Positions 6,539 to 22,416 of a stretch of 64,000 nucleotides of DNA are shown one piece after another (the stretch's first letter is position 1; each line of letters begins with the position of its first letter). Made by a program: the position numbers and the translations under genes. Source of the DNA: Leifsonia sp. 466MF (GTDB lineage: Bacteria; Actinomycetota; Actinomycetes; Actinomycetales; Microbacteriaceae). The notes below the pieces were generated by a model. It did no database searches and was not told the origin of the DNA. It worked only from the letters and a program-made list of their open reading frames with translations. The stretch spans positions 2,852,001 to 2,916,000 of the forward strand of contig NZ_LT629696.1 in the NCBI RefSeq assembly GCF_900100265.1. The letters run 5' to 3'.

Positions 6539-6545
6539 CCGGCAA

Positions 6546-6587
6546 CGATGAGGCCCCTACCGGCAAGCGGCGGTAGGGGCCTCATCG
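6546..6587. terminator. 17-bp perfect hairpin between convergent phage genes
   Basis: Arms 6546-6562 (cgatgaggcccctaccg) and 6571-6587 pair perfectly over 17 bp around an 8-nt loop. It lies between the rightward small HTH gene and the leftward holin-like gene, whose stop is at 6582, so it can terminate both. It is the expected end of the long leftward late operon. Confidence 0.85.
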
Positions 6588-7084: not shown

Positions 7085-7191
7085 CCGCAGCGTCCTTTGG
7101 CGCCGGTGCACCAGTAGCCGGCTCGCCCGCGCGGGCAGCGTCCAATCCCGCATAGCCAGTCGCGCCACTGGGCGCGCATCCAGCGCTTCAC
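7072..7191 (-). CDS. Cys-rich 39-aa phage mini-protein
   Basis: Very short gene starting at GTG 7191, which overlaps the endolysin TGA (GTGA). It ends at 7072, inside the next gene's first codons. The product is basic and aromatic, with four cysteines spaced C14-x4-C19-x8-C28-x6-C35, and Trp/Tyr beside them (GYWC). The spacing suggests a small metal-binding or disulfide-stabilised fold. Evidence for reality is the double overlap at both ends, which matches the coupling seen through this operon. The function is unknown; its place between endolysin and membrane proteins suggests lysis or superinfection control. Confidence 0.6.
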   Translation of the reverse strand: MKRWMRAQWRDWLCGIGRCPRGRAGYWCTGAKGRCGWPE

Positions 7192-7814: not shown

Positions 7815-7833
7815 GGTGGGATCTCCAAACGGG

Positions 7834-8601: not shown

Positions 8602-10004
8602 GCGAGTCCTGTCGTTACGAGGCCGAGGTCGGCCAGGCTGATATCGGGGTCGAAGTCGGCCAGCGTCGGGCCGGGGTTGGTCACCAGCTGAGCCACGGTG
8701 AGCGTGGCGGCGGGGTTCGGCCGAGCGGCGCACACGTTGACCTCGTGCGACCAGCCGGCGCCGTCATAGCGGAGGATGCCGCCGATGATTTGGAACTGCG
8801 GCCCCACGTGCGCCATGCCGGCGTAGACGCTGCCGGCGAAGTGCAGCGGGACGTTTTGGACGGTCGGCCGGTACAGGACGGCCTCCAGCGCGGCCGGCAG
8901 CGGCAGCCGGCGGGCGTCGAACCGCAGCGGCGGCAGCCGGAGCTGGCCGTTCAGGCCGTTGACGATCGCCAGCACCTGGCCGAGCAACCACGCCGGAAAC
9001 CGGTTGAACGCATCCACCGAGCCGGCGGTGAACTCGGTTGGGTCGAACGTGATGTCCTCGGTGTCCACGCGCAGCACGCGCCGGCTGCGGGCGTCGTAGC
9101 GCGCCGTGCGGCCCTCGATGAATCCCTCGGTGTAGATGGTGCGCTTCTGGGCGCCGGCGGTCAGGCCCGGGTCCTTGCCGTACCAGAAATAGCCGACCTG
9201 CACCACGTCGATGGCCTCGGCCACCGTGGACTCCAGGGTGTACGAATCCACGGCCACCTTGGAGGCCGGCACGACCAGGCCGGCGCTCAGCGACAGCACC
9301 ACTTTGCCGGCGCTCAGGGCGAGCGCCACCGGCGAGGTCGTCGTGAACTCCCCCACCGTGATGCGGTTGGCGTGCGGGTCGTAGTTGACCACGCCCATGG
9401 GATGGGTTCGGTACACCTGTTGAATCAGCTCCAGCGCCGTGCGCGCATCCTTGGCGGCCTGGCCGTGCATGATGCGGTCCACGTTCGCCGGCAGAACCTG
9501 CGGCAGGGTGTCGATTCCTTCCACCAGGCCGTTGGCGCCTCGGTCGTACAGGCGTTGTAGCCGCACGTTCGTGCGGGCCTCGCTCCAGCCGCCGGCGCCC
9601 TCCACCCATCCGTCCACGGCGTCGCCGGCGAACACGGCCGCGCCGAGGTTGGCCAGCACGTCCGACGCTGTGAACGTGACTACCCATACGGTCTCGTCCA
9701 GGTTGGTCAGGGGGTTGTGGACGCGCCGGCGCTCTGCGCGCGGCTTGCTCAGCGACCCTCGGAACTGCACGCGGTAGGGGTCGGCCATGGCCACCACGAC
9801 CGCCTGGCCTACGCGGTTCTCGTCGGTGACGAAGTTGCCGAGGCGGTCCACCAGCTGCATGGTGAGGATGGAGGGTTCCGGCTGCTCATAGGGGTCCTCA
9901 CGGCCCCAGCGGATGCTGAGGCCGGCGAGGGCCACCAGGTCGGTGCCGTCCCAGCTCGATGCGATGGGCCGGCCGTTGATGGTGACGATGGCGCCGGCGG
10001 TCAT
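8598..10004 (-). CDS. Minor tail protein
   Basis: A 468-aa structural protein directly after the tape measure gene; ATG 10004 overlaps that gene's TGA (ATGA). The position corresponds to distal tail or tail-hub (baseplate-like) proteins of siphoviruses. The sequence has alternating beta-rich stretches and no recognisable enzyme motif. A motif typical of actinophage minor tail proteins (SIRWGREDPYEQPEPSIL) occurs near the N-terminus. It ends in an ATGA overlap with the fibre gene. The exact position in the tail is not determined. Confidence 0.8.
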   Translation of the reverse strand: MTAGAIVTINGRPIASSWDGTDLVALAGLSIRWGREDPYEQPEPSILTMQLVDRLGNFVTDENRVGQAVVVAMADPYRVQFRGSLSKPRAERRRVHNPLTNLDETVWVVTFTASDVLANLGAAVFAGDAVDGWVEGAGGWSEARTNVRLQRLYDRGANGLVEGIDTLPQVLPANVDRIMHGQAAKDARTALELIQQVYRTHPMGVVNYDPHANRITVGEFTTTSPVALALSAGKVVLSLSAGLVVPASKVAVDSYTLESTVAEAIDVVQVGYFWYGKDPGLTAGAQKRTIYTEGFIEGRTARYDARSRRVLRVDTEDITFDPTEFTAGSVDAFNRFPAWLLGQVLAIVNGLNGQLRLPPLRFDARRLPLPAALEAVLYRPTVQNVPLHFAGSVYAGMAHVGPQFQIIGGILRYDGAGWSHEVNVCAARPNPAATLTVAQLVTNPGPTLADFDPDISLADLGLVTTGLA

Positions 10005-11893
10005 CGGTTCACCCCGCCGGCGGCGATGGTGCGGCCGTTGGCCTTGTCGCTGTCGTTCAGCACCTTGCGAATCTCGCGGGCGACTCCCTCGGGGTCGGTT
10101 ACCAGGCCGTTGAACTCCACGTTCACGTAGGTGTCGCCGCCGCCCTTGCCCTTGCCGCTGCCGGCGATGGCGCCGGCGTCCATGCTCGCCACCGTGGTGG
10201 GCGCGGCGACGGCGGCCGTGCGGAAGCTGAAGCCCTCGACGGCCTCGGCGGCGCTGAACGCCAGCATGGCCGGCTGGACGGTCGGCTCGTCGACGACCAG
10301 GCGCGCGGTGAACGTCTGATTCATCCCCAGGAGGTCCTTCACCCATCCGGGGATCGCGCCGGCCACCAGGTCGCCCAGCCACTTGATGGCCTCTCGAATC
10401 CAGCCGACGAAGGACTCGAAACCATCGGACCAGCTGCCCACCAGGTAGTCCCAGTACAGGCCGATGGCCTCGAACACCGAGCGGAACCAATCGCCCACGT
10501 TTTTGATGGTGTCGAGCACGAACCCCCACACGTCGCCGGCGACCTTTTGCACCTCGTCCCAGTGCTGCACCAGCAGCACGACGATGGCGATGACCAGCGC
10601 GATGGCGGCGAGGATGGCCAGGATGATCCAGGTAATCGGGGAGGCGAGCCAGGCGGCGTTGTTCGCCCACTGAGCGGCCGTCTGGACGGCCTGGACGGCC
10701 GCAAACACCTTCATGGCGCCGGATATCACGGTGACGGCTGCGCCCGCGCCAGTGAGCACCACAGCGAGCGGGCCGAGGATCGGGGCGAACTCGCGCAGCC
10801 CGTCGAGTATCGGGGTGATGACCGGGAGCGCTGCGGCGCCTATGTCGGTGAACGTCTGGGTGACGGTGCGCTGAAGCTTCTCGAACTCCTGGTCCTTGCT
10901 CATGGCGCCGTCGAGCGCGTCGGCCGCGCCGGCGACCTGGCCGAGGGCATCCACGGCGCTGGAGGGGTCGAGCGCGAACAGGGCGCCGCCGAGGTCCTCG
11001 GCCTTGGTGCCGAACAGGGCGACCGCTGCGGCGTTCTGGGCCACCGGGTCGGTCATGCCGCGCAGACGGTCGAGCACGTCATCCAGGCCGGCCGCAGCGT
11101 CGCCGCCGCCGCGCGCGATGCGGGCGGTGGCTTCGGCGGCGTCCAGCCCTAGGGCCTCGAATCCGGCGGCCGAGGTCTTGGAGCCATCGGTGGCGCGGAT
11201 TTGGAACTCCTTCAGCGCGTCGGCCACCACGTCGGTGTTCCGGGCGCCGGCGGCCAGGCCCTGGTTAATCAGGCCGGTGGCGGTCTCGCCGTCCAGGCCC
11301 AGCCGTTGGAACAGGGCCGGGTACTCGGTGAAGGTGTCCAGTAGGTCCTCGCCGGCGCGGGCGTTCGACTGGAGGCCCTTGGTGATGATGTCCAGCGCTT
11401 CACTGGCGTCTTTGGCCATGCCGGTGCGCATGAGCTGTCCCACGGCCGTGGTGGTGGCGCCCAGGTCCTGGTCGAACGCGCTGGACAGGCTGAGGACCTT
11501 GCCGGTGACGCTCTCCAGCTCGGCGTCGCTGGCGCTCCCCATGCCGGCGATGTTCGACTCCACCCCTCGGATGGCCTCGTTGACGGTGGCGAGGGAGTCG
11601 CCGTAGGCGTCGGCGTACAGCTTGCCGGCGATGCCGCCTAGCCGCTCAGACTCGGCCGGGTCCAGGCCGAGCTGAGCGGTCAGGCGGTTGTGGTCCTGGG
11701 CGTTCTCCACGGCGCCGTAGACGCCGGCGGCGAGGGCGGCGCCGGCGGCGGCGCCGGCCAGCTGCATGCCGCCCTTCAGCTTGCCCATGGAGTCCTCGAA
11801 CGACTTGCCGGCCTTCTCGGCCTCACCGAAGCCGGCCACCGCGTCGGTGGCGTCGCCGATGATGCGGATGGCGAGAATGGCGGTCTTACCCAT
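10001..11893 (-). CDS. Tail tape measure protein
   Basis: A 630-aa protein that sets tail length and passes through the tail during DNA entry. An N-terminal helical region contains a TP901-like core (SFEDSMGKLKGGMQLAGAAA; GIAGKLYADAYGDSL; FDQDLGATTTAVGQLMRTGM). It has long Ala/Asp-rich helices and a hydrophobic block at about 420-440 (ILAILAAIALVIAIVVLLV). It is short for the family, implying a short tail (roughly 90-100 nm by the usual 0.15 nm per residue rule). The start overlaps the stop of the frameshifted chaperone frame by 8 nt. Confidence 0.93.
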   Translation of the reverse strand: MGKTAILAIRIIGDATDAVAGFGEAEKAGKSFEDSMGKLKGGMQLAGAAAGAALAAGVYGAVENAQDHNRLTAQLGLDPAESERLGGIAGKLYADAYGDSLATVNEAIRGVESNIAGMGSASDAELESVTGKVLSLSSAFDQDLGATTTAVGQLMRTGMAKDASEALDIITKGLQSNARAGEDLLDTFTEYPALFQRLGLDGETATGLINQGLAAGARNTDVVADALKEFQIRATDGSKTSAAGFEALGLDAAEATARIARGGGDAAAGLDDVLDRLRGMTDPVAQNAAAVALFGTKAEDLGGALFALDPSSAVDALGQVAGAADALDGAMSKDQEFEKLQRTVTQTFTDIGAAALPVITPILDGLREFAPILGPLAVVLTGAGAAVTVISGAMKVFAAVQAVQTAAQWANNAAWLASPITWIILAILAAIALVIAIVVLLVQHWDEVQKVAGDVWGFVLDTIKNVGDWFRSVFEAIGLYWDYLVGSWSDGFESFVGWIREAIKWLGDLVAGAIPGWVKDLLGMNQTFTARLVVDEPTVQPAMLAFSAAEAVEGFSFRTAAVAAPTTVASMDAGAIAGSGKGKGGGDTYVNVEFNGLVTDPEGVAREIRKVLNDSDKANGRTIAAGGVNR

Positions 11894-12352
11894 GAGATTC
11901 CTCTGCTAGGAGTTCGATCAGGTGCAGGGCGGTGGCGTAGTCCTCCAGGCGTGGCGCGGCCTCACCGCGCCACGCCCAGGGGGCTACGTGGAACCTCAGG
12001 CCGAGGGCGACGGAGAGTTCGTGGAGCGTCCCCGGCGCGTACCTTTTCCCACCGTCTCGTTCACGGTGAGGTCGTCGCCGGCCGGCGCCTCGTCGTCGTC
12101 CTTCACGGCCTCGACGTCGAGCGCGGCGGTCTCGCCGCTGGTGAACTCGTCCCAGCTCAGGTCCAGCTCGCCGGTGCGCTTGGCGGCCGACCAGGCCAGG
12201 AACGGCTCCAGCTTCAGGGCGTTGTCCTTCAGGTCGCCCCAGCCTCGGTTGCGGCGCAGCGTGGTCTCGAAGTTGAGCCGGTCCTCCAGGGTCGGCTGTA
12301 CGTCGATGGTCTTGCCTCCAGGGAGGCTGATACGGAGCTTGCGAGCTGCCAT
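11886..12352 (-). CDS. Tail assembly chaperone fusion (G-T type) via -1 frameshift
   Basis: Full-length product made when ribosomes slip by -1 at 12044-12050: 103 codons of the upstream frame, then 52 codons of the downstream frame starting RYAPGTLHEL and ending LLAEESHG, 155 aa in all. This mirrors the lambda gpG/gpGT arrangement, in which the ratio of short and fused products supports tape-measure folding and tail-tube assembly. The downstream frame has no good start of its own and lies directly before the tape measure gene, as expected. Slip-site position, size and gene order agree. Confidence 0.85.
11996..12352 (-). CDS. Tail assembly chaperone, short (G-like) product
   Basis: A 118-aa zero-frame product starting at ATG 12352. 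The N-terminal region is a compact alpha/beta segment (KLRISLPGGKTIDVQP) and the C-terminal part is acidic (VEAVKDDDEAPAGDDL). It is a small acidic chaperone located between the tail-tube/connector genes and the tape measure gene. Normal termination at 11996 yields this form; slippage yields the longer fusion. A good purine-rich ribosome site (GAAGGAAAG) lies just upstream, within the last codons of the preceding gene. Confidence 0.85.
   Translation of the reverse strand: MAARKLRISLPGGKTIDVQPTLEDRLNFETTLRRNRGWGDLKDNALKLEPFLAWSAAKRTGELDLSWDEFTSGETAALDVEAVKDDDEAPAGDDLTVNETVGKGTRRGRSTNSPSPSA
12044..12050 (-). promoter_or_regulatory. Programmed -1 ribosomal frameshift site GGGAAAA
   Basis: On the minus strand the heptamer G GGA AAA sits in the zero frame (GTG GGA AAA GGT), an exact X-XXY-YYZ slippery sequence of the same class as lambda's GGGAAAG. 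Slipping back one base continues into the overlapping frame (AGG TAC GCG). It is one of very few A-runs in this GC-rich operon, which argues for selection. Confidence 0.88.
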
Positions 12353-12354
12353 GG

Positions 12355-12738
12355 TTACTTTCCTTCAATCGTGTCTAGAACGTTGTCCACGTAGCGCTCG
12401 TAGAGCGGCAGCCAGGTGGACTCGGACTCTTGCGCGCCTTGGGACGCGAAAGGGTTTGGTGCGATGTGCCGGCGCGCCCAGCCCCAGTGAATGACTGGGG
12501 CGTATGGCACGCGGCTGTTGTTGCCGACTCGGACGATGCCGGCGGTTTTGGTGCCGGCGCTGCGGATGGTGGCGGCCAACTGATCGGTGCGGTGCGGCGC
12601 GCGTGACTCGGCGCGCCGCGCCGCGATGGCGGCGGCCTGGCCGTGAACGATCTTCAAGTCGGTGAGGTCGTCGCCGGCGGCGCGCAGACTCTTGCGCAGC
12701 TGCCGGCCGCCCTCGACCTGATAGACGCTCTCGGCCAT
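12355..12738 (-). CDS. HK97 gp10-like head-tail / tail-completion protein
   Basis: A 127-aa protein resembling the HK97 gp10 family: a basic N-terminal helix (GGRQLRKSLRAAGDDLTDLK), the RAPHRTDQLAATIRS segment followed by a short beta region, and the hallmark VIHWGW...IAPNPF motif near the C-terminus. Members help join or complete the neck and tail. Unusually, it follows the presumed tail-tube gene rather than preceding the tail terminator. It is separated by 2 nt from the chaperone start. Confidence 0.7.
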   Translation of the reverse strand: MAESVYQVEGGRQLRKSLRAAGDDLTDLKIVHGQAAAIAARRAESRAPHRTDQLAATIRSAGTKTAGIVRVGNNSRVPYAPVIHWGWARRHIAPNPFASQGAQESESTWLPLYERYVDNVLDTIEGK

Positions 12739-12744
12739 GGCCGG

Positions 12745-13152
12745 CTAGACGCTCGGCGCCAGGGTCGGGTCCCCGATCAGCGGGAACTCGAAGTCCTGGG
12801 TGTTCTTCTTCTTCACGTCGCCGCCCCAGCCAATCGGACGGATCTTGATGACGCCGCTGAAGTCGGCCGTGGCGGCGTCGTTGGGGGTCCAGACGAACGG
12901 CAGCAGCTTGCCGGCGTTCTCGAGCGCGAACGCCTGGAGGCTATCCAGGTCGAAGTCGTCCACGAGGGTGCCGCCGAGGGTCCACGCGGTGGTGTCCTCG
13001 CCGTCCAGGTTGGAGCCATCCAGCAGCGGGATGGGGTCCTCGCTGGAGGTGTCGGGGCTGAGGCTCGTCTTGGTGAGGTCGCCGGCCCACTCGCGTGAGC
13101 TGCCGGTCTCTCCGATCTTCAGCGAACCGGGGCCGAGGGTACGGGTCGTCAT
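12745..13152 (-). CDS. Major tail (tube) protein, small
   Basis: A 135-aa protein starting at ATG 13152 behind a strong ribosome site (AAAGGAGA), as expected for an abundant structural protein. The sequence is beta-rich and acidic, with LKIGETGSSREWAGDLT near the start and a conserved-looking closing segment (FEFPLIGDPTLAPSV). Its place between the terminator-like gene and the tail chaperones fits the tube subunit. It is short for the family (often 180-250 aa). A connector or decoration protein cannot be excluded. Confidence 0.7.
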   Translation of the reverse strand: MTTRTLGPGSLKIGETGSSREWAGDLTKTSLSPDTSSEDPIPLLDGSNLDGEDTTAWTLGGTLVDDFDLDSLQAFALENAGKLLPFVWTPNDAATADFSGVIKIRPIGWGGDVKKKNTQDFEFPLIGDPTLAPSV

Positions 13153-13163
13153 GGTGGTCTCCT

Positions 13164-13544
13164 TTATTCGAGGTCGTTGGTGGTGATGGTGTAGGCCGGC
13201 AGCACCGGCCCGTTGAGCTGGGCGAAGCCGCCGGGTTCGGCGCGCTTCAGGTTGAGCTGGCCGGCGTGCAGGGCGTTCAGGATCAGGTCCAGTCGCGCCC
13301 AGGCGGCCAGGTAGTTGTCCGCGGGGCCGGCTACGGCGTTCAGCTCGAACGCCATGGCCGGCTCGCTCCAGGACTCGAACGTGATGGTGGGGGCGGAGAC
13401 ACACACCACGCCGGCGCGGGCGGCTGAGGGGATTTCCCCGGCGTCCAGCGTGGCGTGCACGTCCTCCAGGCCGGCGGCGTCGAGTGCGGCGCGCACGTCC
13501 TCCACCAGCTCGTGGGCGAGGTCGAGACTCGTTTTCATGGTCAC
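13164..13544 (-). CDS. Tail terminator-like protein
   Basis: A 126-aa protein whose GTG start (13544) overlaps the upstream stop (GTGA); an internal ATG two codons later (13538) is equally usable. The order of helix, short beta strands (VVCVSAPTITFESW; AFELNAVAG) and C-terminal helix, together with its place directly before the tail-tube gene, fits the tail terminator (gpU-like) that caps tube polymerisation and joins the head. Assignment is by position and size. Confidence 0.6.
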   Translation of the reverse strand: MTMKTSLDLAHELVEDVRAALDAAGLEDVHATLDAGEIPSAARAGVVCVSAPTITFESWSEPAMAFELNAVAGPADNYLAAWARLDLILNALHAGQLNLKRAEPGGFAQLNGPVLPAYTITTNDLE

Positions 13545-13870
13545 AGCCCCATCACGAGGTAGCGGCGCAGCAGCGGGTAGGCGGCGGCCATGGGGTCGCG
13601 GTTCAGGCGGAACAGCTGCGGCTCCACGCCGTCGAGCTGCACCACCCCGTTGCGGCTGGCCTTGCGGTAGTACAGGTCCGCGCCCACCTCCAGCACGGCG
13701 CGCGCCACCACCGACTCGGGCACCCCGAACGGGTTGCCCTCACCGATGAAGTCGTCAACCATCTGCTGAGCCTCGGCCTGGCAGGACTCGGCGTAGGGCT
13801 TGTCCTCTCCGATGGCCTGGACGTACCAGCTCAGGTCGGTGGCGGCGGGCGCCGTGCTGTCCTCTGCCAT
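13541..13870 (-). CDS. Head-tail connector (gp6-like) protein
   Basis: A 109-aa, largely helical protein that follows the capsid gene by 2 bp. The core (SCQAEAQQMVDDFIGEGNPF; SVVARAVLEVGADLYYRKAS) matches the helical-bundle pattern of HK97 gp6/SPP1 gp15 adaptors, which form the ring beneath the portal. The C-terminal YPLLRRYLVMGL is also typical of actinophage members. The gene ends in a GTGA overlap with the terminator-like gene. Confidence 0.7.
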   Translation of the reverse strand: MAEDSTAPAATDLSWYVQAIGEDKPYAESCQAEAQQMVDDFIGEGNPFGVPESVVARAVLEVGADLYYRKASRNGVVQLDGVEPQLFRLNRDPMAAAYPLLRRYLVMGL

Positions 13871-13872
13871 CG

Positions 13873-15672
13873 TTACGCGCCGACCTTCACGGCCTCGATG
13901 GCGTCCGGGAACTGCGAGGCCGCAGCCAGGTAGCCGTACTTACTGAACGCCTCGGTGAGGTTCAGGATGTTCTGGTCCTGGAGCTTGAACGGGGCGTTGG
14001 CCGACTCCCAGGTGGTGACGGCCAGCTGGTTGTGGAACTCGATGGTGTTGGCCGGCGCGTCGGGGAGGATGCGGAACTCGATGCCCGCCAGGTCGCCCTT
14101 CAGGCCGGTGAGGTCCAGCTCACCCACCTGGTTGGTGCCCTGCCCCCAGACGCGCATCAGGCTGTTGCCGTTGGTGTCCTCCAGGCGAATCAGCTTCTTG
14201 AACACGTCCTTGGAGACCAGGCTGCCGTCGAGCGTGTACCCGCGGTCATCGAACAGGTCGGCGGCGTCCACCACGAGGTCCAGCCAGTCGTAGGCGGTCG
14301 CGGCGGCGCCGAGGGTCAGGGGGTGGGTGTCGCCGGCGAGCTGCGTCGCGATGATTTCGCGCACGAGGTCGCGGACGACTTCCTCGGTCGCTCGCGCGTA
14401 CTCCAGGTCCATGGCCGTGTTGGCCGTGGTGAGGTAGGCGGCGTTCGCGCGGTCGATGACCTGGCGGGACAGCTCGGTGTAGCCGCCGTAGGTCTCCACC
14501 GGGGTGCTGTCGGCCTTCAGGGTGATCTTGCCCTTGGGGAGGTCGTCGCCCTCCTTGGCCTGCTTGCTCACGCTGATGCTGTTGGTGGAGAGCTGGAGGT
14601 ATTCGAGCGTCATCCCCTCGGCCGGCAGCGGCTGGCGGCTGAAGGTGTTGATGATGCGGCGGTTGCGGTTGATGAGGTGGATGGCGTCCCGCACCCACGT
14701 GTTGGGGGTGTTGGTGTCGCCGGTGCCGGCGCCGGTGTAGGCGTCCGCGGTCATGCGCTCGTAGAACGCCATGGCGGCGCTGGAACCGCCGGCGAGGTCC
14801 TTCAGGAATGCGCCGGCCGTGGGCCAGCTCGGGCCGGCGTCGGCGGGCGCCGGCGCTGCGGCGTGGGCCAGAACGATGCGCTCGAACTCGTTGCGCTGCT
14901 GGGTCAGCAGCTGGTCGATGCGGTCCTCGGTGATCTCGGGCACGGTGTTGGTTTCCTCTCGGTTGGTGGCCAGGGCGGCCGCTGGGATGGGCGCGGCGGC
15001 CGCTCGGCGGCCGGCGTGGGCGTACATGGACAGGTCGAACAGGTTGCCGGCCGGCGCCTCGTCGCCGGCGGTCTCGGTGGTGGTCTCGGAGTCGAGCCGG
15101 TCAGCCAGGCCGGCGGCGACGGCCTCGGCCGCCGAATACCAGGTCTCGGCCTTCATCAGCTCGCGCCAGGCGGCCGGCTCGCCGCCGGCCTTGGCGGCGT
15201 ACATGCTGGCGATGTTGTCGCTGAGCCGGTCCAGGTCGTCGCCGGCCTTGCGCATGTCCTCGGCGTCGCCCATGGCGATGGTCCAGGCGTCGTGAATCAT
15301 CACCTCGGCGTTCTCGCCCATCACCACCTCGTCGCCGGCGCACGCGATGAACGATGCGGCGCTGGCGGCCAGGCCGTCGATGGTGACGACCACGCGGGCG
15401 GGGTGCTGGCGCAGCGCGTTGCGGATGGCCACGGCGTCGTACACGTCGCCGCCGGGCGAGTTGACGAACACCTCCAGGGTGTCCACGTCCATGTCCCGGA
15501 TGGCCGGCACCAGCTCGGCCGCGTCCACGCCGCCGAACCATCCGCCGATGGCGCCGTACAGGTGCAGCCGGCTGGAGCGCGGCTCGTCGGTGGTCTCGAT
15601 GTTCCACCGCGCCGGGGTGTCCCGGACGGCCGCCGCGAATCGGTCGCGGCGCTCGGTGATGGGGTTAGGCAT
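13873..15672 (-). CDS. Fused ClpP-like prohead protease and HK97-fold major capsid protein
   Basis: A single 599-aa gene holding two normally separate functions. Residues of about 30-205 form a ClpP-type (S49/S14-like) protease with NSPGGDVYDA (71-80), the nucleophile Ser104 in GLAASAASF and His127 (IHDAW). A linker (about 205-240) leads to a scaffold-like helix (EITEDRIDQLLTQQRNEFE), then an HK97-type capsid domain (about 290-599). The protease would cleave itself and the scaffold from the capsid during maturation. The start overlaps the portal stop by 8 nt. There is no internal stop or frameshift. Confidence 0.9.
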   Translation of the reverse strand: MPNPITERRDRFAAAVRDTPARWNIETTDEPRSSRLHLYGAIGGWFGGVDAAELVPAIRDMDVDTLEVFVNSPGGDVYDAVAIRNALRQHPARVVVTIDGLAASAASFIACAGDEVVMGENAEVMIHDAWTIAMGDAEDMRKAGDDLDRLSDNIASMYAAKAGGEPAAWRELMKAETWYSAAEAVAAGLADRLDSETTTETAGDEAPAGNLFDLSMYAHAGRRAAAAPIPAAALATNREETNTVPEITEDRIDQLLTQQRNEFERIVLAHAAAPAPADAGPSWPTAGAFLKDLAGGSSAAMAFYERMTADAYTGAGTGDTNTPNTWVRDAIHLINRNRRIINTFSRQPLPAEGMTLEYLQLSTNSISVSKQAKEGDDLPKGKITLKADSTPVETYGGYTELSRQVIDRANAAYLTTANTAMDLEYARATEEVVRDLVREIIATQLAGDTHPLTLGAAATAYDWLDLVVDAADLFDDRGYTLDGSLVSKDVFKKLIRLEDTNGNSLMRVWGQGTNQVGELDLTGLKGDLAGIEFRILPDAPANTIEFHNQLAVTTWESANAPFKLQDQNILNLTEAFSKYGYLAAASQFPDAIEAVKVGA

Positions 15673-16891
15673 TGGTCGGGGCCTCCTGCTCGGTGTTGGT
15701 GGTCTTGGTCGGCCGGCGGGCCTCCAGCTCGGCGCGCTGCGCGTCGGTCAGCGGCGCCATCTGCTCGATGGCGCGGACCTCGTCCACGGTCGCCCAGCCG
15801 CGCTGAGGGTCGAGCGACAGGCCGTGCGCCTCGTAGCGCGTCTTGGTGTCGGTGCGCAGCAGGGCGTCCACGTTGAACTTGGCGCGCTGGCGGCCCGGTA
15901 GCAGCTCGCTGAGGGCGTCCTCGATTTCGCGCAGCGGCTTCATCAGCCCGAATCGGACGTAGCCGATCCACTCTTGCTCCACGTTCGCGTAGGTCTGGGA
16001 GTTGCCCTCGACGGCCACCAGCATGATGGAGGCCGGCGCACCGATCAGGCGGGCCATCTGGATGGTGGTGTACTGCTGCGTTTCCAGGAACTGGATGTCT
16101 GAGGGCTTCAGCAGCAGCGGGGTGTAGTTCAAGCCCTTGCCGAGCACGCGCAGCCGTTCGGTGATGTTGCGCTCGGCGGCGTCGTCGCGCTCGGTGCCGT
16201 CCGGGTTGCGGCCGTACCAGACATTGCGGTACTTGTCGGCGTCGCCGGGCGCCAGCTCCTGGTCGGTGCTCAGGATGCCGTCCGGGAGGTTCGCGTCCGA
16301 CAGCCACAGCGCGCCGTAGTCGCGCGCGTCGAGCGCGCCGCGCACCTCGATCTGGGCGGCCTGGATGGGGCCGAGGCCGCGCGCCACGCCAGGGATGCGC
16401 AGCAGCTGGAGGTGGCGAACGTCGCGCGCCCCGAGCGGCTTGCCGCGCCACCAGTAGCGCTTAGTGGCGAGGCCGGCGGCGTCGTAGACGACTTCCACGG
16501 TGACCTCGGCGGGGTTGAGCACCGACAGGTTGATGACCTCGCCCAGCGGGCCGCGCGTGACGCGCCAGAACGCGTTGCCGTCCAGGTACAGCGAATTGAC
16601 GGTGTACTCCAGGAACGCGCTACGGGTCTCGTCCACGTCCGGCTTCAGGGCGAGAGCCGGCGTTTCCGGGAGCACCACCCCGTTGCGCTCCACGTCGATG
16701 GAGAGCTGGGAGACCGAGGTCGCGTGAATCTGGATGCCTCGATAAAGGGTCGAAAGGGTGAGGGCACGTTCCGCCGTCACCTCGGCCTCCCGGCGTGCCG
16801 GCATCAGTCGCGCCGGCATGGTGCCGGGGTTCTCGGCCGCCTCAGCGTTGAACGCGAACAGGCGGGCCACGCGGCTAAAGATGCTCGGCAT
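15665..16891 (-). CDS. Portal protein (HK97 family)
   Basis: A 408-aa protein that forms the dodecameric ring through which DNA is packaged and ejected. Features include an N-terminal basic segment (MPSIFSRVARLFAF), a beta-rich wing (VNSLYLDGNAFWRVTRG), the GLGPIQAA region typical of this family, and a long stem helix with the RLIGAPASIMLV segment. The C-terminal tail is helical and charged. It lies between the large terminase and the protease-capsid gene, the standard siphovirus order. A 103-bp spacer to the terminase holds no gene. Confidence 0.92.
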   Translation of the reverse strand: MPSIFSRVARLFAFNAEAAENPGTMPARLMPARREAEVTAERALTLSTLYRGIQIHATSVSQLSIDVERNGVVLPETPALALKPDVDETRSAFLEYTVNSLYLDGNAFWRVTRGPLGEVINLSVLNPAEVTVEVVYDAAGLATKRYWWRGKPLGARDVRHLQLLRIPGVARGLGPIQAAQIEVRGALDARDYGALWLSDANLPDGILSTDQELAPGDADKYRNVWYGRNPDGTERDDAAERNITERLRVLGKGLNYTPLLLKPSDIQFLETQQYTTIQMARLIGAPASIMLVAVEGNSQTYANVEQEWIGYVRFGLMKPLREIEDALSELLPGRQRAKFNVDALLRTDTKTRYEAHGLSLDPQRGWATVDEVRAIEQMAPLTDAQRAELEARRPTKTTNTEQEAPTNA

Positions 16892-16994
16892 GACGACGAG
16901 ACTGGACGCCGGCGCCGGCCGGCTCCAACCTTGGCGACGGTTGGCGCCGGCCCGCGCCGGGTGGCGACGTTTCGTGCCGTTTCGTGACGGCCGG

Positions 16995-18455
16995 CTAGCC
17001 GAGCTGGAGCGACCGCACGGCGGGGAGGTGCAGCACCCCGTAGGCGCCGAGGTTGGCCGACTCCAGCGCGCTGATGGAGCCGACCGAGGCCCGCCGGCCG
17101 AACAGCCAGGTGCCGTCGCCGGCGAACCGCTTGGTGGCCAGCTCGGCGGCGGCCTCCAGCTTGTCGTGTGGCCTATAGCGCCACGTGGGGCCGGCGGGGT
17201 TGGTGATGCCGGCCACCGTCGCCTGGGTCGCGGCGATAACCTCGCGCGTCCCCACAGGGATCAGCTCGAAGCCGGCCCGCTGCACCTCGTCGTGGAGGGC
17301 CGCTGAGGGGCCGTTCGGGTCGATGATGAACCCCGCGTCCGGGTACTTGGCGCGCAGCTCGCGCAGCTTGGCCAGGGCACCATAGGTGGACTCCATCCAA
17401 CCGCCCTTCACCACGGCCGACAGGGTGCCGGCGCCGTGCACCTGGGTGGCGGTGATGGTGGTGTCTACGCCGTCCACGCCGACCGCTGCGGCGAAGCAGA
17501 CGCGGCCAGGGGCCGGCGGCGTCGGATCGTTCCACGCGGCATCCCTCCAGGCGCCCACCGGGATGACGCGCTCGGTGGCGCCGGTGCGGCGGTTGCCGAA
17601 CGCGCGCGCAAACTCCCCCGGCGAGTCCGCGAACTCGGCGCGGAACGCCTCCAGCCCTTCCCGCGTGAACAGGTGGCCGGCGCCGGGGTGGCGGGCGTAG
17701 ATGCGGTCCAGGTCGAACGGGTCGTCATCGTCCCCGATGCCCCAGTCGAAGCCGGCCACGGTGGGGTCGGGGGTGCCGCTGCGGAACTCGTCCAGCATGC
17801 CGTTGAGCGCCGTGGACTCGACGGTGCCCTCGGTGCTGAAGATCCAGGTTTGCGGGCGCTGGCCGGTGACCATCTCGCGAGTCAGCTTGGTGGCCGAGAA
17901 CGACTGTCGGAGGATGGCGTACTGCGCGGCGGTCCAGTACCAGAACTCGTCCAGGCTCACCTTGTCGGCTTGCTTGCCGTCCAGGGCGCCCTCCACCGGG
18001 GCGAACGGCCGGAACTTGGAGCCGTTGACGAACGGCAGCGCGGCCGAGCCGTTGGAGCGTCGAGCCTTGGGGGCGAGGCCGCGCAACGCCGAGGACTCCC
18101 ACAGCTCCACCATCTCCAGGAACTTCTCGGTGGCATGCTGGCCGCTCTGCGCCGTGTACCAGGTGCGCCGGTTGCGGCCCATGAGGGCGTTCTGGATAGA
18201 GGCGGCGAGGTCCAGGGTCGTCTTGCCGGCCTGGCGCGGAACGGTCACCAGCACGGTCGAGTAGACGAACAGGCCGAACGAATCCACCTCCAGCGCCACG
18301 TCCGCCACGTATCGCTGCCAGGGCAGCAGCGGCTGCCCCATCTCGGCCGCGATGGCGGCGACCTTGGGGCCGTGCGTGCGCCGGCTATAGTCCCTCGGCG
18401 TGACCTTCCGGGGCGGGGTCAGCGTCAAGGGTGGCGGGAGCTGCAAGAGCGTCAA
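16995..18455 (-). CDS. Terminase large subunit
   Basis: A 486-aa DNA-packaging motor. The N-terminal ATPase has a Walker A-like PRQAGKTT (73-80) and Walker B VSLDE (Asp169-Glu170). The C-terminal part is an RNase H-like nuclease with conserved acids (FDWGIGDDDDP; AVGVDGVDTT; FIIDPNG). TTG 18455 is preferred because the conserved N-terminus (KVTPRDYSRRTHGPK) lies upstream of the first ATG and a GAGG element precedes it. That gives a 71-nt overlap with the small-subunit gene. A downstream TTG at residue 10 is an alternative start. Confidence 0.93.
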   Translation of the reverse strand: MTLLQLPPPLTLTPPRKVTPRDYSRRTHGPKVAAIAAEMGQPLLPWQRYVADVALEVDSFGLFVYSTVLVTVPRQAGKTTLDLAASIQNALMGRNRRTWYTAQSGQHATEKFLEMVELWESSALRGLAPKARRSNGSAALPFVNGSKFRPFAPVEGALDGKQADKVSLDEFWYWTAAQYAILRQSFSATKLTREMVTGQRPQTWIFSTEGTVESTALNGMLDEFRSGTPDPTVAGFDWGIGDDDDPFDLDRIYARHPGAGHLFTREGLEAFRAEFADSPGEFARAFGNRRTGATERVIPVGAWRDAAWNDPTPPAPGRVCFAAAVGVDGVDTTITATQVHGAGTLSAVVKGGWMESTYGALAKLRELRAKYPDAGFIIDPNGPSAALHDEVQRAGFELIPVGTREVIAATQATVAGITNPAGPTWRYRPHDKLEAAAELATKRFAGDGTWLFGRRASVGSISALESANLGAYGVLHLPAVRSLQLG

Positions 18456-18786
18456 GGAGTCGCCTCGTTTCGGGGGTCAGGTGGGTGTCGTCGGTGGGGC
18501 CGGCGGCGTCGATGGCCGGCGCCAGGTGCTGCATCATCTCGAACAGCTGGCCGGCCTCGTTGGCGACGGCGCGGCCCTTGGCGTTGCCCTTGTCGATGCT
18601 CACGGCCAGGGCGATGGCCAGCTGCTTGATGGTGCGCTTGGGGCCTCGGAGCTCGCCGGCGTCGGCCTCGATTTCTTCAATCGCGGCGCGCGTTTCGGTC
18701 TCGGTCGGTCCCTGGCCGTAATGGCCGGGATTCGCCGCGTTTTGCCCTGGAATTTCGAGTCCTGGCAGGGCCATCGTGTCGGTCAT
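18385..18786 (-). CDS. Terminase small subunit (probable)
   Basis: A 133-aa, mostly helical protein immediately upstream of and overlapping the large terminase gene. It contains GPKRTIKQLAIALAVSIDKG and GQLFEMMQHLAPAIDAAG, a pattern shared by small actinophage TerS proteins that recognise the packaging site and control cleavage. A DNA-binding HTH is not obvious by eye. ATG 18786 was chosen; an ATG four codons later is possible. Assignment rests on position, size and local similarity. Confidence 0.7.
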   Translation of the reverse strand: MTDTMALPGLEIPGQNAANPGHYGQGPTETETRAAIEEIEADAGELRGPKRTIKQLAIALAVSIDKGNAKGRAVANEAGQLFEMMQHLAPAIDAAGPTDDTHLTPETRRLLDALAAPATLDADPAPEGHAEGL

Positions 18787-18889
18787 CGGCGCCGGCCTCA
18801 GCTTTCTTTTTTCTGTGGTGGATTGGGGAGATGGGGGCGGTGGTCGCGGGGTGTCCAGTGCCGCGCGAGCCAGAAAAACGGACGCGCGT

Positions 18890-19591
18890 TCACCAGTCAG
18901 GCTCCCCATCCGAGGGCGTGGCCGGCGCAGCGATCGAACCGGCCAGGGCAGGGGCCGGCGAGGGGTCTACGTGCGTCGAGTACCAGCGGCGAACGTGCAG
19001 CATCATCTCTTCCGGGCGCTCAGCTCGCACGCGCTGCTCCACCACCTCGCGACCGGGGTCGATGGTGACCACCTGCCAGCCCAGGCCCCGGTACTCGGCC
19101 AGCTCGGTCTCGGTCGGGATGGCATGGACCAGCCAGACGGTGACGCGCTCCTTCAGCCGGGTGGCTGTGTGAATGGCGGCCTTCCTGGCGCGGACAGCGA
19201 TGTGCCGCACGTGCTGCGGGTAGGTGTGACTCTGGGCCGGCTCGTAGGGCATCAGGGCACGTGCGATGCGGTCCATGTCCAGCGTCACGTCACCGGGCTT
19301 GCAGTGCTCGGCCACGTAGGTGGACTTGCCGGCGGCCGGCGGCCCGATGACGACGACGACCGAGGCGCCGTAGCCGGCCCGCACGCGGTTCTGGCGCTTG
19401 GAGTTGCAGGGCCGGCACGCCGGCCGGTAGTTCTCCAGCTCGTCGGGGCCTCCATGGCTGAACGGCACTACGTGGTCCTTGGTCGTCGCCACGCCGGTGC
19501 ATCCTGGCAGCTTCAGCCAGCACCTGCGGCCATAGGTCTCCAGCACCAGCTCGGTCATGCGCTGGGATGCCCTGCCCCCTCGGTTAGCCAT
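18890..19591 (-). CDS. HNH endonuclease fused to a P-loop kinase domain
   Basis: A 233-aa protein with two clear modules. Residues of about 10-68 form an HNH nuclease: zinc Cys24/Cys31, catalytic D39-H40 (TKDHVVPFSHGG), then ENYRPACRPCNSKRQ with Cys59/Cys62 and Asn63. Residues of about 77-215 form a P-loop NTPase with Walker A GPPAAGKS (83-90), TLDMDRIA, and an HTATRLKERVTVWLVH strand, as in predicted AAA_33/polynucleotide-kinase-like proteins. HNH proteins next to terminases are often needed for cos cleavage and packaging. A fused kinase is uncommon and might process DNA ends. The start overlaps the upstream stop by 8 nt. Confidence 0.82.
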   Translation of the reverse strand: MANRGGRASQRMTELVLETYGRRCWLKLPGCTGVATTKDHVVPFSHGGPDELENYRPACRPCNSKRQNRVRAGYGASVVVVIGPPAAGKSTYVAEHCKPGDVTLDMDRIARALMPYEPAQSHTYPQHVRHIAVRARKAAIHTATRLKERVTVWLVHAIPTETELAEYRGLGWQVVTIDPGREVVEQRVRAERPEEMMLHVRRWYSTHVDPSPAPALAGSIAAPATPSDGEPDW

Positions 19592-19832
19592 GGTCGCGTC
19601 CCCAGCGCTTGTGTGCGGCTTGGCGACTGATGCCGGCGGCGGCGCCGATGTGCGACCAGCTGCGGCCGGTGGCGAGCTGGCCATCCACCCCGGCCTGGAT
19701 AGCCTCGTCAACGGCGTCGCGCAGCTTCAGCAGCGCCACCAGCTCAGGCTCGTCCCCCTCGGCCACGCGCCGGCCGGCCGAGCGGATCATGCGGCCAACG
19801 GCGGCGAGGAAGGGCAGCGTTTCGACGCTCAC
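19584..19832 (-). CDS. Small HTH phage protein (82 aa)
   Basis: An 82-residue protein starting at GTG 19832, overlapping the upstream stop (GTGA). A helical N-terminal region (LLKLRDAVDEAIQAGVDG) is followed by a C-terminal helix-turn-helix of the kind found in many small actinobacterial regulators (SWSHIGAAAGISRQAAHKRW, about 58-77). It could regulate late genes or assist packaging or replication. Function unknown. It ends 8 nt inside the HNH-kinase gene. Confidence 0.7.
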   Translation of the reverse strand: MSVETLPFLAAVGRMIRSAGRRVAEGDEPELVALLKLRDAVDEAIQAGVDGQLATGRSWSHIGAAAGISRQAAHKRWGRDHG

Positions 19833-20128
19833 CGGCTGTCATCCATCGGTTGACGGCCGCCAGCGAACACTCCAGGGGCCGGCGTAGCGGTCGTCCTGGC
19901 GTCGCTCCGCGTCGCTGGAGCGCCGCCAGCTGCGCCACCACCGAGGCGTGCGCCGGCGTAGTAGGCGTGGATATCGGCCCAGGCGTAGCGAACGTCCCGG
20001 CCGAGCTTCACCCACCGAGGACCCTCGCCCCGCTGGCGCATCTCGCGCAGCTTGCGCTCGCCCTTCTCACCAAGCTGGAGCCATTCCACGAGGTCGGCCG
20101 GCGTCGCCCAGACACGCCGCTCAGCCAT
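19829..20128 (-). CDS. Excisionase/MerR-like DNA-binding protein
   Basis: A 99-aa protein. Its first ~60 residues form a winged-helix 'HTH_17/AlpA' domain: WATPADLVEWLQLGEKGERK for the helices, then GPRWVKLGRDVRYAWADIHA with the basic wing. This family includes recombination directionality factors (Xis), so it is one of two Xis candidates in the prophage (the other starts at 21985). The C-terminal ~35 residues are Gly/Ala/Thr-rich and probably disordered. It overlaps both neighbours. Confidence 0.7.
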   Translation of the reverse strand: MAERRVWATPADLVEWLQLGEKGERKLREMRQRGEGPRWVKLGRDVRYAWADIHAYYAGARLGGGAAGGAPATRSDARTTATPAPGVFAGGRQPMDDSR

Positions 20129-20468
20129 GCCGGCGCTCGTTCCAACGGCGCTGCATCTCGGCCGCGTCGGCCGGCGTCAGCGGCGAGTCGAACCGCAGCC
20201 GGCCCCCCGATACGCTGACGCCATGCCTCCAGTCGAAAACGTCCAGCTCGCGCTCGTCCTCGGCCTCGCTGTCGCCGTCCTGCTGCTCGCCCTTGGGCTG
20301 CTCGTCCAGTACGCCATCATCCGCGCCGCCGTCCTCTCGGCGCTGCGCCAGCAGCACGACGAGAACCGGCGTGCGCCGCTCGCGCAGCCACAGCACCAGG
20401 GCGACCACGCCTAGCACGGCAGCGATACCGAGCAACAGCACCGGGTCGGTGTCCAGGTCGGGCGTCAT
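20121..20468 (-). CDS. Single-pass membrane phage protein (115 aa)
   Basis: A 115-aa protein with one membrane helix at about 10-28 (VLLLGIAAVLGVVALVLWL), a basic RERR stop, an acidic disordered middle (EDGGADDGVLDEQ; DSEAEDERELD) and a conserved-looking C-terminal tail (FDSPLTPADAAEMQRRW). ATG 20468 overlaps the upstream TGA (ATGA), and its end overlaps the next start by 8 nt. An antisense frame (20222-20414) also encodes a hydrophobic peptide, but it lacks a ribosome site. Function unknown; superinfection exclusion is one possibility for an early membrane protein. Confidence 0.65.
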   Translation of the reverse strand: MTPDLDTDPVLLLGIAAVLGVVALVLWLRERRTPVLVVLLAQRREDGGADDGVLDEQPKGEQQDGDSEAEDERELDVFDWRHGVSVSGGRLRFDSPLTPADAAEMQRRWNERRHG

Positions 20469-20776
20469 GCGCCGGCCTCCCCGGTCTCAACGGCACGCAA
20501 CTGCCGGCGCCGGCTGCGGTCGCCGTACACCACGGCCATGTCGGCGGCGTCGTAGTACGCCAGCATGCGCTCGGCCGACTCCAGCCACAGCTGCACCAGC
20601 TCGCCGGCGTCGGCGCGGCGGTCGGCCACCATGCCGGCGACCACGCGCAGCGTCCTGGCGTCCTGCTGGCGCTGCTCATGGTCCAGCACGGTGAACGCTC
20701 GGGCCGCTGCGTCGTCAAACCGGGCCGCCATGGCCTGGAGGCCGTCCACGGCGCTGTTCGCATCTCTGCGCGTCAC
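20465..20776 (-). CDS. Hypothetical helical phage protein (103 aa)
   Basis: A 103-residue, Ala/Arg/Asp-rich all-helical protein (GLQAMAARFDDAAARAFTVL; LVQLWLESAERMLAYYDAAD). GTG 20776 overlaps the TGA of the preceding mini-gene (GTGA), and its stop overlaps the next ATG (ATGA), which fixes the reading frame. No motif or family is recognised. It belongs to the early part of the leftward operon, near the replication-type gene. Confidence 0.65.
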   Translation of the reverse strand: MTRRDANSAVDGLQAMAARFDDAAARAFTVLDHEQRQQDARTLRVVAGMVADRRADAGELVQLWLESAERMLAYYDAADMAVVYGDRSRRRQLRAVETGEAGA

Positions 20777-20922
20777 AGGGCCGCTCCCATCGGCATGTAG
20801 GCCGAGAGGATGATCCAGCCGAGCACCGGCCCAGCTGCGACCAGCGCGCCGGCGCCGGCCATCTTCATCCTGTCTCGGGCCGTAGTGGACTCGGGGTGTC
20901 GGTAGGTGACTCGCTTGCGCAT
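20773..20922 (-). CDS. 49-aa phage membrane mini-protein
   Basis: A 49-residue gene. ATG 20922 shares one base with the upstream TGA (TGATG), and the stop overlaps the next GTG (GTGA). A basic N-terminus (MRKRVTYRHPESTTARDR) precedes one membrane helix (about 21-42, AGAGALVAAGPVLGWIILSA). The double overlap makes it very likely translated. Function unknown. Confidence 0.65.
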   Translation of the reverse strand: MRKRVTYRHPESTTARDRMKMAGAGALVAAGPVLGWIILSAYMPMGAAL

Positions 20923-21773
20923 CAGTGGACCTCTCCTGTCTCGGTGTCGATGTGACCGGGGACGCTCGCCCCGCAGTCGATGCAGCGGCCGTCGCGGCCG
21001 ATGGTGTGGGGCATGGACCCGCGCCACCTGGGGCATGCGTTCGGGTCCTCATGCGGGCCGCGCTGAGCGTCGGCCGGCGAGCTGATAGGGCCGGCTGCGG
21101 CAGACGCGCCAGCGGGCCGGTGGGAGTCGGCGGAGCCGTCAATCTTCGGCGCTTGCGCCGGCTCAGCAGCCGCGCCAGCGGATGCGGCTAGCGCTGCGCC
21201 GGAGGCGTCCCCCTCGTGCGCACGCGCACGGTTACCTACGTAGGCCGGTTCAGGAGAGTCCTCACGCGGGTAGTTAATGGATGGTTCTAGGGATGGTTTG
21301 GGTGTCACCGGCGGCACCCCCCGGGTGTCGTCAGCGTCACCGGGTGACATGGGCGTCACCCCCTCCCCGGAGGCGTGATAGGCCGGCTCGCACGCCGGGT
21401 GCCGCATGACCGTCTGAGAGGTCTTAGGCAGCGGCTTGCCGCACCCCTGACAGATCAGGCGGTGCTGGCGCGTGTTGTCGCAGTGCGGCGGGCACTTCAG
21501 CGTGAAGTGATAGAGGTTCGGGCGGTCGGTGGGCGCGAACTCGACCGTTCCGCCAGCCTGGATATCGCGGTGAATCTCGCCCAGCGCTATCAGCTCGTTG
21601 AGCGTCCGCTGCACCTGACGCTCCGACACTCGCGCGTAGTGCGCCAGCGTCCCCACGGTTGGCCAGGCGCCGCCGTCGCCATCGTGATTGGCGATGCCGA
21701 CCAACACGGCTATGGCGGTCGAGTTGCGCGCCCTGGAGTGATGCATGGCGATGGCCATTGACTCGACGCTCAC
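20922..21773 (-). CDS. Winged-helix replication-initiator-like protein with zinc motifs
   Basis: A 283-aa protein. The N-terminal winged helix (about 12-75) resembles the HTH_36 domain of phage/plasmid replication proteins (WPTVGTLAHYARVSERQVQR, then LIALGEIHRDIQAGG). A four-Cys cluster follows (CPPHC at about 94-98, CQGCGK about 108-113). A long Ala/Pro/Asp-rich linker ends in a second zinc-ribbon-like pair (CPRW...CIDCGA). It probably binds the phage origin or loads host helicase, and no other replication gene is present. GTG 21773 overlaps the upstream stop (GTGA). Confidence 0.7.
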   Translation of the reverse strand: MSVESMAIAMHHSRARNSTAIAVLVGIANHDGDGGAWPTVGTLAHYARVSERQVQRTLNELIALGEIHRDIQAGGTVEFAPTDRPNLYHFTLKCPPHCDNTRQHRLICQGCGKPLPKTSQTVMRHPACEPAYHASGEGVTPMSPGDADDTRGVPPVTPKPSLEPSINYPREDSPEPAYVGNRARAHEGDASGAALAASAGAAAEPAQAPKIDGSADSHRPAGASAAAGPISSPADAQRGPHEDPNACPRWRGSMPHTIGRDGRCIDCGASVPGHIDTETGEVH

Positions 21774-21985
21774 CGAGCCGCCTCGGCAGGAAAGTCGAAC
21801 CGATCGAACACGTAGGCGCCCGTCGCGCCATCGAGCTGCGCCAGGGGCACAATGTCGCCGCGCTGGATGCGTCGCACAAGGGTGCTCCGATCAATGCCGA
21901 GCAGCGCACAGACGGTCACCGAGCCAATGAGCTGGCCGGGGAAGATGATGCGTGGAGCGTCGTCGTCCGGGGCGGTTTTCAACAT
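21770..21985 (-). CDS. First leftward early gene: Cro/Xis-like HTH protein (71 aa)
   Basis: A 71-residue protein with an AlpA/excisionase-like helix-turn-helix (SVTVCALLGIDRSTLVRRIQ, about 22-41), then a wing-like stretch (PLAQLDGATGAYVFDR). It is the first gene of the leftward operon, divergent from the repressor across a 100-bp control region. That is the usual place of Cro or an excisionase/cro dual factor in integration-dependent phages. ATG 21985 was chosen because upstream in-frame sequence would consume the operator region. Confidence 0.75.
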   Translation of the reverse strand: MLKTAPDDDAPRIIFPGQLIGSVTVCALLGIDRSTLVRRIQRGDIVPLAQLDGATGAYVFDRFDFPAEAAR

Positions 21986-22085
21986 GTGGACAAGCTTGTG
22001 CAAATCACAAGACTTGGGACGACACCCAATGCGGCATGTCGCAAATGTCTTTGCATGGGTGCGTGGCCGGTGCAATGCTTAGTGC
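21986..22085. promoter_or_regulatory. Divergent repressor/early promoter-operator region
   Basis: This 100-bp AT-richer gap separates the repressor from the leftward operon. It carries CTTGTG-5nt-CACAAG (21995-22000 with 22006-22011), GCAAA-4nt-TTTGC (22041-22045 with 22050-22054), ACAAGCTTGT (21990-21999), and TTGTCCACA on the minus strand (21985-21993). The repressor ATG (22086) has no clear ribosome site. These inverted repeats are the best candidates for repressor operators controlling both promoters. Confidence 0.6.
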
Positions 22086-22388
22086 ATGACGATGACCAAC
22101 CCGAGCACCGCCTACCTTGAATGGGACATGGCCGACCGCATCCGTAAGGCGATGCGCGTGCGAGACATTGGCAACCAGGAGCTGGCGGACGCTCTCTACG
22201 TGAGTCGCAACACCATCAGCAACTGGATCGGCGGGCGCACGACTCCCGACGGGCCGGCGCTGCTCGGGCTAGCGTCGGTTCTCGACGTTCCGATGGAGTG
22301 GCTTAAAACAGGAAAGGCCCCATCCGAGGATGGGGCCGGTGAGAGCCGCCCGTGGGAATCGAACCCACGACCTTCTCATTACGAGTGA
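22086..22388 (+). CDS. Immunity repressor whose 3' end is attR (integration-trimmed form)
   Basis: Prophage form of 100 aa. An XRE/CI-type HTH domain covers about 17-75 (ELADALYVSRNTISNWIGGR, then LLGLASVLDVPMEWL). Residues 87-99 (SRPWESNPRPSHY) are encoded antisense to the tRNA-Thr 3' half. After the core (ends 22382) comes one host-derived codon (Glu) and TGA 22386-22388. In circular phage DNA the core joins 5030, and the frame stays open for 29 codons (ending ELLAVSS) to TGA 5117-5119, giving 128 aa. So attP is inside the gene, and integration removes the tail. By analogy with BPs gp33, the long form may be unstable and the short one active. Confidence 0.9.
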   Translation: MTMTNPSTAYLEWDMADRIRKAMRVRDIGNQELADALYVSRNTISNWIGGRTTPDGPALLGLASVLDVPMEWLKTGKAPSEDGAGESRPWESNPRPSHYE

Positions 22389-22416
22389 GATGCTCTGCCG
22401 ACTGAGCTAGGGCGGC
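22344..22416 (-). tRNA. tRNA-Thr(CGU), 3' half supplied by the prophage (attR)
   Basis: A complete 73-nt cloverleaf: acceptor GCCGCCC/GGGCGGC, D-arm GCTC...GAGC, anticodon stem TCTCA/TGAGA with loop CTCGTAA (anticodon CGT), T-stem GTGGG/CCCAC, discriminator T at 22344. The 5' half and anticodon come from the host (right of 22382); the T-arm and 3' acceptor strand come from the phage. No CCA is encoded (next bases CTC), unlike the displaced host end at 4988-4990. The gene should remain functional. The 14-bp core is 22369-22382. Confidence 0.95.

Follow-up and report, generated by a model that had tools for sequence, protein, structure and literature searches.

A probable integration-dependent immunity switch in a 17-kb Leifsonia prophage whose repressor gene ends inside a tRNA-Thr gene

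What becomes of a phage repressor gene when its 3' end lies inside a host tRNA gene, and does immunity depend on that position? The question is raised by a prophage in the 64,000-bp stretch of the genome of Leifsonia sp. 466MF that we analyzed (hereafter the window). Our main reading, to which we assign a probability of roughly 85%, is that the prophage occupies a tRNA-Thr gene, that its attP lies within the repressor gene (rep), that integration exchanges a repressor of 128 codons for one of 100 while separating rep from the integrase gene (int), and that immunity is integration-dependent. The prophage covers 17,353 bp (5030-22382). Searches of Pfam and PHROG identify genes for terminase, portal, protease/capsid, tape measure, and replication on its minus strand. 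The prophage-form repressor, an open reading frame of 100 aa on the plus strand (22086-22388), has an XRE/CI-type helix-turn-helix and matches Phage_CI_repr in Pfam (6.5e-9) and the repressor family phrog_2328 in PHROG (6.7e-25, residues 2-100 covered). At the other end, int (5116-6009, plus strand) encodes a tyrosine integrase of 297 aa (PF00589, 8.2e-24) with the C-terminus LPSAA. Its best named phage matches, 43-47% identical, are mycobacteriophages (e.g., Rem711), prophages of M. abscessus (e.g., prophiGD21-1), the Gordonia phage Bunker, and Babsiella; phages with known integration-dependent immunity are found among the matches of both repressor and integrase. A divergent 71-aa open reading frame (21770-21985, minus strand) stands in the cro/excisionase position and has no match to a Pfam or PHROG family. 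Between it and rep lies a control region (21986-22085) with a candidate operator, CTTGTG-CAAAT-CACAAG (21995-22011). Operator palindromes are not kept letter for letter, and our scan upstream of rep found no sigma-70 promoter-like match.

The reading frames at the two junctions are as the sequence-only reading had described them. In the prophage, rep stops after 100 codons at a TGA (22386-22388) within host tRNA-Thr sequence. When position 22382 is joined in silico to 5030, the frame gains 29 codons, giving 128 aa, and closes at a TGA (5117-5119) overlapping the GTG start of int at 5116. The cut-off 3' end of the phage-form gene is thus the plus-strand segment 5030-5119, attP falls within the rep frame near its 3' end, and int adjoins rep in line in the phage form. 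We dropped the open frame itself as proof of a joined repressor: 47% of shuffles of 5030-5115 remain open for at least 28 codons, and 29 or more open codons follow 69% of random positions, since open frames are common in DNA this rich in GC. The matter is settled by relatives that carry the joined form naturally. In a metagenome virus contig from IMG/VR (L016; 16,762 bp), whose integrase is 89% identical to that of the window, rep continues across the same core to reach int, the junction being internal to the contig; the repressor has 126 codons, and its TGA overlaps the ATG of int. Three further long repressors were found in the protein database, P0001 (124 aa), P0002 (126), and P0003 (128). 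The contigs of P0003 and the integrase P0026 are both of 16,874, and those of P0002 and the integrase P0027 both of 5,937; hence rep and int are probably on the same contigs in these cases. The repressors are 70-92% identical, and their long-form tails align with length differences of whole codons, keeping the frame, a hydrophobic pattern, and a similar length; across the four natural long forms and the one predicted for the window, K, G, Y, and A occupy identical columns of the tail. Natural short forms (P0004, P0006-P0009, and the provirus G062) end in SHYE like that of the window, with the exception of P0005, which extends six residues beyond it. The overlapping start of int is supported by the conservation of its N-terminus (M..QT..STV) in several homologues. 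The earlier proposal, in which attP lies inside the repressor gene and integration, as in BPs and Brujita, costs the gene its 3' end and parts it from int, is borne out by the junctions and by the relatives.

The attachment sites tell the same story from the side of the host. The strict common core GACCTTCTCATTAC (14 bp) occurs at two sites in the window, 5016-5029 and 22369-22382, and at no others, and forms part of a longer match, derived from the tRNA, in which two T-stem base pairs are substituted. At attR the strict core lies in the anticodon stem-loop of the tRNA, the region of strand exchange; the exchange must fall within these 14 bp. In L016, GACCTT-CTCATTAC-AAGGTC is the likely pair of integrase core sites. 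The extended core at attR (22343-22382) is the 3' half of tRNA-Thr brought by the phage, with the T-stem GTGGG/CCCAC, and attL (4990-5029) retains the original host 3' half, with AAGGG/CCCTT. ARAGORN identified the reconstituted tRNA-Thr(CGT) on the minus strand at 22343-22416, and both versions of the tRNA, that of the host and the one restored by the phage, fold with a completely paired T-stem. Integration thus restores the tRNA gene that attB overlaps. The assignment of attB is supported by the 27 other genomes of the genus, all of which have an undivided tRNA-Thr gene and therefore an empty site: the right flank aligns in 27/27, and in 8/27 the left flank does so as well, uninterrupted for about 1.5 kb. 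The T-stem is AAGGG/CCCTT in 25 of these congeners and GAGGG/CCCTC in two, GTGGG/CCCAC being confined in the genus set to the window's genome. The gene adjoining the tRNA shares 94% identity with a Leifsonia soli gene, and the named relatives that match it best belong to Leifsonia. A scan of DNA for the pattern of close attP sites found nothing. We also considered tRNA-dependent lysogeny, in which, as described in PMC10865867, integration at a short core breaks the tRNA and the phage carries a replacement, and ruled it out: the tRNA is restored and paired, and within the prophage ARAGORN detects no tRNA gene. At the left end, a long minus-strand open reading frame runs across attL (2327-5026); the PKD-domain protein encoded there probably starts near 4880, in which case an 899-aa call would be over-long.

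The two substituted base pairs have a consequence for the repressor. Translated in the repressor's frame, CCCTTGACC of the host gives Pro-stop (TGA 5015-5017 at attL), and CCCACGACC of the phage gives Pro-Arg. The phage core hence has two compensated T-stem pair changes by which the TGA is absent from the repressor, and when six T-stem variants were translated, AAGGG/CCCTT was the sole one giving a stop in this frame. We surveyed the T-stem in 398 genomes, 78 of which had a match. Apart from the window, 24 rows have the acceptor of this genus, GCCGCCC, and all of them carry AAGGG; the GTGGG T-stem goes with the acceptors GCCGCCT or GCCACCT. In the comparison within the genus, two congeners combine GCCGCCC with GAGGG, which gives no stop. 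The phage core combines the acceptor of this host with a stop-free T-stem. It may bear its compensated changes because the host T-stem would place a stop inside the repressor. A different origin, whose chances we put somewhat short of even, is that the differences derive from a core copied out of another host genus and not from selection against the stop, GTGGG/CCCAC being native to many other Microbacteriaceae genomes. However, the native version comes with GCCGCCT or GCCACCT where the phage pairs it with GCCGCCC, and the other GCCGCCC rows carry the only tested variant that creates the stop, the two congeners with GAGGG apart. The phage core may also have arisen by borrowing from another genus followed by a change of the acceptor.

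Our terminator scan revealed a further feature just ahead of attP, a terminator-like hairpin on the minus strand (22306-22337; stem 22316-22337, T-rich tract 22306-22315). Read along the tRNA strand, the stem (22337-22316) begins 5-6 nt beyond the 3' end of the tRNA and is followed by TTTCCTGTTT; in rep it overlaps the linker codons for KTGKAPSEDGA. We scored hairpins as stem pairs plus the count of T in the next 10 nt. The score of 16 in the window was reached by none of 500 synonymous recodings and none of 348 other windows. In a set of 27 systems, the hairpin outscores recoding at the 5% level in 19 and other windows at the 2% level likewise in 19; of six further virus loci, one of which (L144) is a duplicate, two beat recoding. 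When all loci are anchored in the same way, a score of 15 or more is reached by 22 of 31 systems and by 3 of 17 relatives whose repressor has no recognised tRNA sequence (Fisher p 0.0007, p-values here being rough because the systems are related to one another). This comparison omits Xula (score 0 in the recoding scan), L144 (whose repressor-tRNA sequence equals that of G042), the duplicates L131 and L133, and L149, L150, L004-L006, and L013, which have no usable anchor. Several known systems have a weak hairpin or none (Brujita, Xula, Charlie, Rem711, Nazo, L141, and L142), and phiGD34-2, L147, and L148 pass only one of the two scans. On the host side of attL in the window the score is 0, so that the hairpin is here an addition and not a replacement; empty sites of congeners score from 0 to 23.

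We propose that these linker codons would double as an intrinsic terminator halting tRNA transcripts antisense to rep. It is possible, but in our view unlikely, that the hairpin instead simply follows from the amino acids encoded (WLxTGxAPxxDG), or acts in the repressor mRNA and not for the tRNA. Three of the 17 repressors without tRNA overlap do reach the same score, with five more just under it (13-14), and by folding energy only several systems fail to beat recoding: 0 to 275 of 500 recodings are at least as stable (L016 227, G042 275), with 500 for G147, where the region was mis-sized, as it was for G062. Against this explanation, 19/27 systems beat recoding once the T-tract is counted, and the antisense score exceeds the sense score in 28 of the 31 systems, with two ties, whereas the 17 repressors without tRNA overlap have no polarity (mean 10.4 against 10.2). 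In addition, the changes that set G062 apart from the window within the hairpin are synonymous, and two of them, CCA to CCG and GAT to GAC, together turn one A-T pair into G-C. A limited literature search found no published description of an embedded terminator or of the overlap between repressor and tRNA T-stem. Taken jointly, these features suggest, at slightly better than even odds, that in phages with integration-dependent immunity about 75 bp serve at once as C-terminal codons of the repressor, core site of the integrase, 3' half of the host tRNA, and opposite-strand terminator of that tRNA. The terminator would guard rep against antisense tRNA transcripts once integration sets it head-on to the tRNA gene; in this clade the T-stem would have been recoded so that the tRNA still folds and the repressor escapes the stop; and lysogeny would rewrite a host tRNA for a viral frame. 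If true, the terminator and the recoded T-stem would explain how a repressor placed head-on to a tRNA gene is nevertheless expressed.

How would the long form differ from the short one? The sequence-only reading expected it to be unstable through an ssrA-like tail, and this part did not stand. The predicted tail ends in -AVSS and the natural ones in -AGVQ, -SAVQ, -ARMQ, and -AESW; none ends in -AA, and 0/5 of the long forms of the clade (the predicted one and the four natural ones) end in A. The phage-form repressors of the Mycobacterium and Gordonia phages compared all do (15/15, including Dmitri, whose gene lacks tRNA sequence), 13 of them with AA or AAA and two with -RVA. Joins predicted for other Microbacteriaceae prophages give -TVSV, -KLLV, -RRC, -SVSA, and, in G326, -GAAA. 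The tag is present in some environmental relatives, G069 (-DAA), L138 (-AAA), and L148 (-HAA), and L141 ends in -VMA. The clade thus has repressors without the usual -AA degradation tag. They are not a new class, because integration-dependent repressors without ssrA-like tags are known from M. abscessus: the pertinent passages of PMC8092301 count systems without a tag, which makes the tag typical and not required, and their authors presume other degradation signals. The ssrA-like end is found here on the integrase (-SAA). The 13 closest integrases, its own included, end in -AA, as do 79 of the 120 homologues listed among the 419 found; the tmRNA tag of the host ends in -FALAA. For the L016 repressor, AlphaFold predicts a helix at residues 106-125 with low confidence (block pLDDT 47-62).

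From these sequences, the 128-codon repressor is likely to be inactive or short-lived, in which case immunity would depend on integration. In the phage form, rep and int would be co-transcribed, probably from one promoter, and int would be translationally coupled to rep through the TGA/GTG overlap. Integration strips the tail from the repressor and ends rep in the tRNA; int is left beyond host DNA, a short way after a TGA in the frame of the tail, and the 100-aa repressor would likely maintain lysogeny. Our preferred guess is that the conserved hydrophobic tail would disable the long form, as a degron not of the ssrA type or by interference, and that int would be kept scarce through its -SAA end. 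Counting against an inactive long form, it has no ssrA-like end of the sort that accounts for inactivity in BPs. The main rival on how the long form matters is a switch working via int only, in which both repressor forms are equally repressive and integration fixes the lysogen by cutting an unstable -AA integrase off the repressor promoter. The untagged tails of the clade and the -AA ends of the closest integrases would fit it, and the two repressor forms of BPs are alike in DNA binding, according to PMC4557955. We nonetheless consider it improbable, since a useless tail need not keep its frame, hydrophobic pattern, and length across repressors that are 70-92% identical, and since the untagged M. 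abscessus repressors are presumed to use other degradation signals, as cited above. That this is an ordinary tRNA prophage with a repressor frame entering the tRNA by coincidence is very improbable: frames of this length are often open in such DNA, but the natural joined forms, among them L016 with its own stop/start overlap with int, already contradict coincidence, and the repressors of other family members end in four types of tRNA (Thr, Lys, Arg, Asn).

To place the locus among known systems, we compared it with described phages. Its integration-dependent layout is that set out in parts of PMC9262239, PMC8092301, and PMC4557955. The repressor is about 50% identical, through the tRNA-derived core, to the immunity repressors of cluster P mycobacteriophages (Fishburne, Phayonce), a cluster that a passage of PMC4557955 names as using integration-dependent immunity. 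These phages also have rep followed by int and a divergent small gene on the other side of rep, the excisionase in Phayonce; they differ in size (47-49 kb against 17 kb) and in repressors ending in -LAA or -RVA instead of -VSS. BPs (gp33-103/gp33-136, cluster G), compared by published description, likewise has a long phage form and a short prophage form produced by recombination within rep, and core mismatches that preserve tRNA pairing (excerpts of PMC4557955 and PMC9262239), but uses a tRNA-Arg site, and stability in BPs was established experimentally. Gordonia cluster CW (Jeanie, McGonagall, GMA5, GRU3) comprises temperate siphoviruses of 17.1-17.7 kb that use this system with attP in rep, as portions of PMC5559632 describe; their site is a tRNA-Lys gene, and the Jeanie repressor, about 35% alike, ends in -VAA. 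The integration-dependent repressors of the M. abscessus prophages MabC, MabN, MabO, and MabH share the absence of ssrA-like tags (passages of PMC8092301), but their integrases are untagged too, whereas that of the window ends in -SAA. Finally, the Curtobacterium phage Barebow (PQ868957; 18.3 kb) also has a Microbacteriaceae host, a tRNA-like core in its repressor gene, an adjoining int, and the antisense hairpin; it differs in its tRNA and in a repressor ending in -RRAS, and its GenBank annotation is silent on such a layout.

The claim that such a switch is new in a phage of about 17 kb with a tRNA-Thr site of a Microbacteriaceae-like host has to be narrowed. Phages of this size with the switch are published, in Gordonia (PMC5559632) and as small Bifidobacterium prophages (PMC6109161), and a tRNA-Thr site is described for M. 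abscessus prophages (PMC9934374); in the parts of the literature consulted we found no paper naming a Microbacteriaceae host. The locus is hence a new example of a known integration-dependent switch in a little-explored host group. It extends the switch to a Leifsonia/Microbacteriaceae lineage of ~17-kb phages, in which natural long and short repressors can be compared.

With at most 10 candidates scored per genome, 9 of the 398 Microbacteriaceae genomes, the window's included, have a repressor match at E 1e-15 or better. Seven of the nine repressors end within a tRNA gene (Thr in three, Lys in two, Arg in one, Asn in one); in the other two, the repressor end is not in a tRNA (G326) or the gene lies near a contig end (G307). 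Ends were joined for five prophages of the family and one of the order: the core measures 37-43 bp in five and 15 bp in G326. The latter prophage (L102/L107; about 17 kb) has only this 15-bp core common to rep and int, and its attR lacks an intact T-arm, so that the tRNA is apparently not restored upon integration; the phage-form repressor predicted for it is the one ending in -GAAA. Its sequence is consistent with a possible combination of tRNA-dependent lysogeny with attP in rep.

A few other loci are worth recording. Metagenome virus contigs (L129-L137, L140), several of them of 15.7-16.9 kb, carry related repressors ending in -AA, whose genes contain no recognised tRNA sequence; 7 of the 8 tested have hairpins in the same linker. 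One congener (G006:C2) has equally good repressor matches at 2848549 and 2864561, 16 kb apart, possibly tandem small prophages, and a 13.2-kb contig of another (G002:C39) has two integrase genes about 7 kb apart. The small Arthrobacter phages BlueFeather (L117) and Berka (L060) have a related repressor with no annotated integrase adjoining it, which may be a decayed switch. In Nandita (L120), a tRNA-Arg gene (1845-1918) lies between two integrase genes, beside a repressor-like gene.
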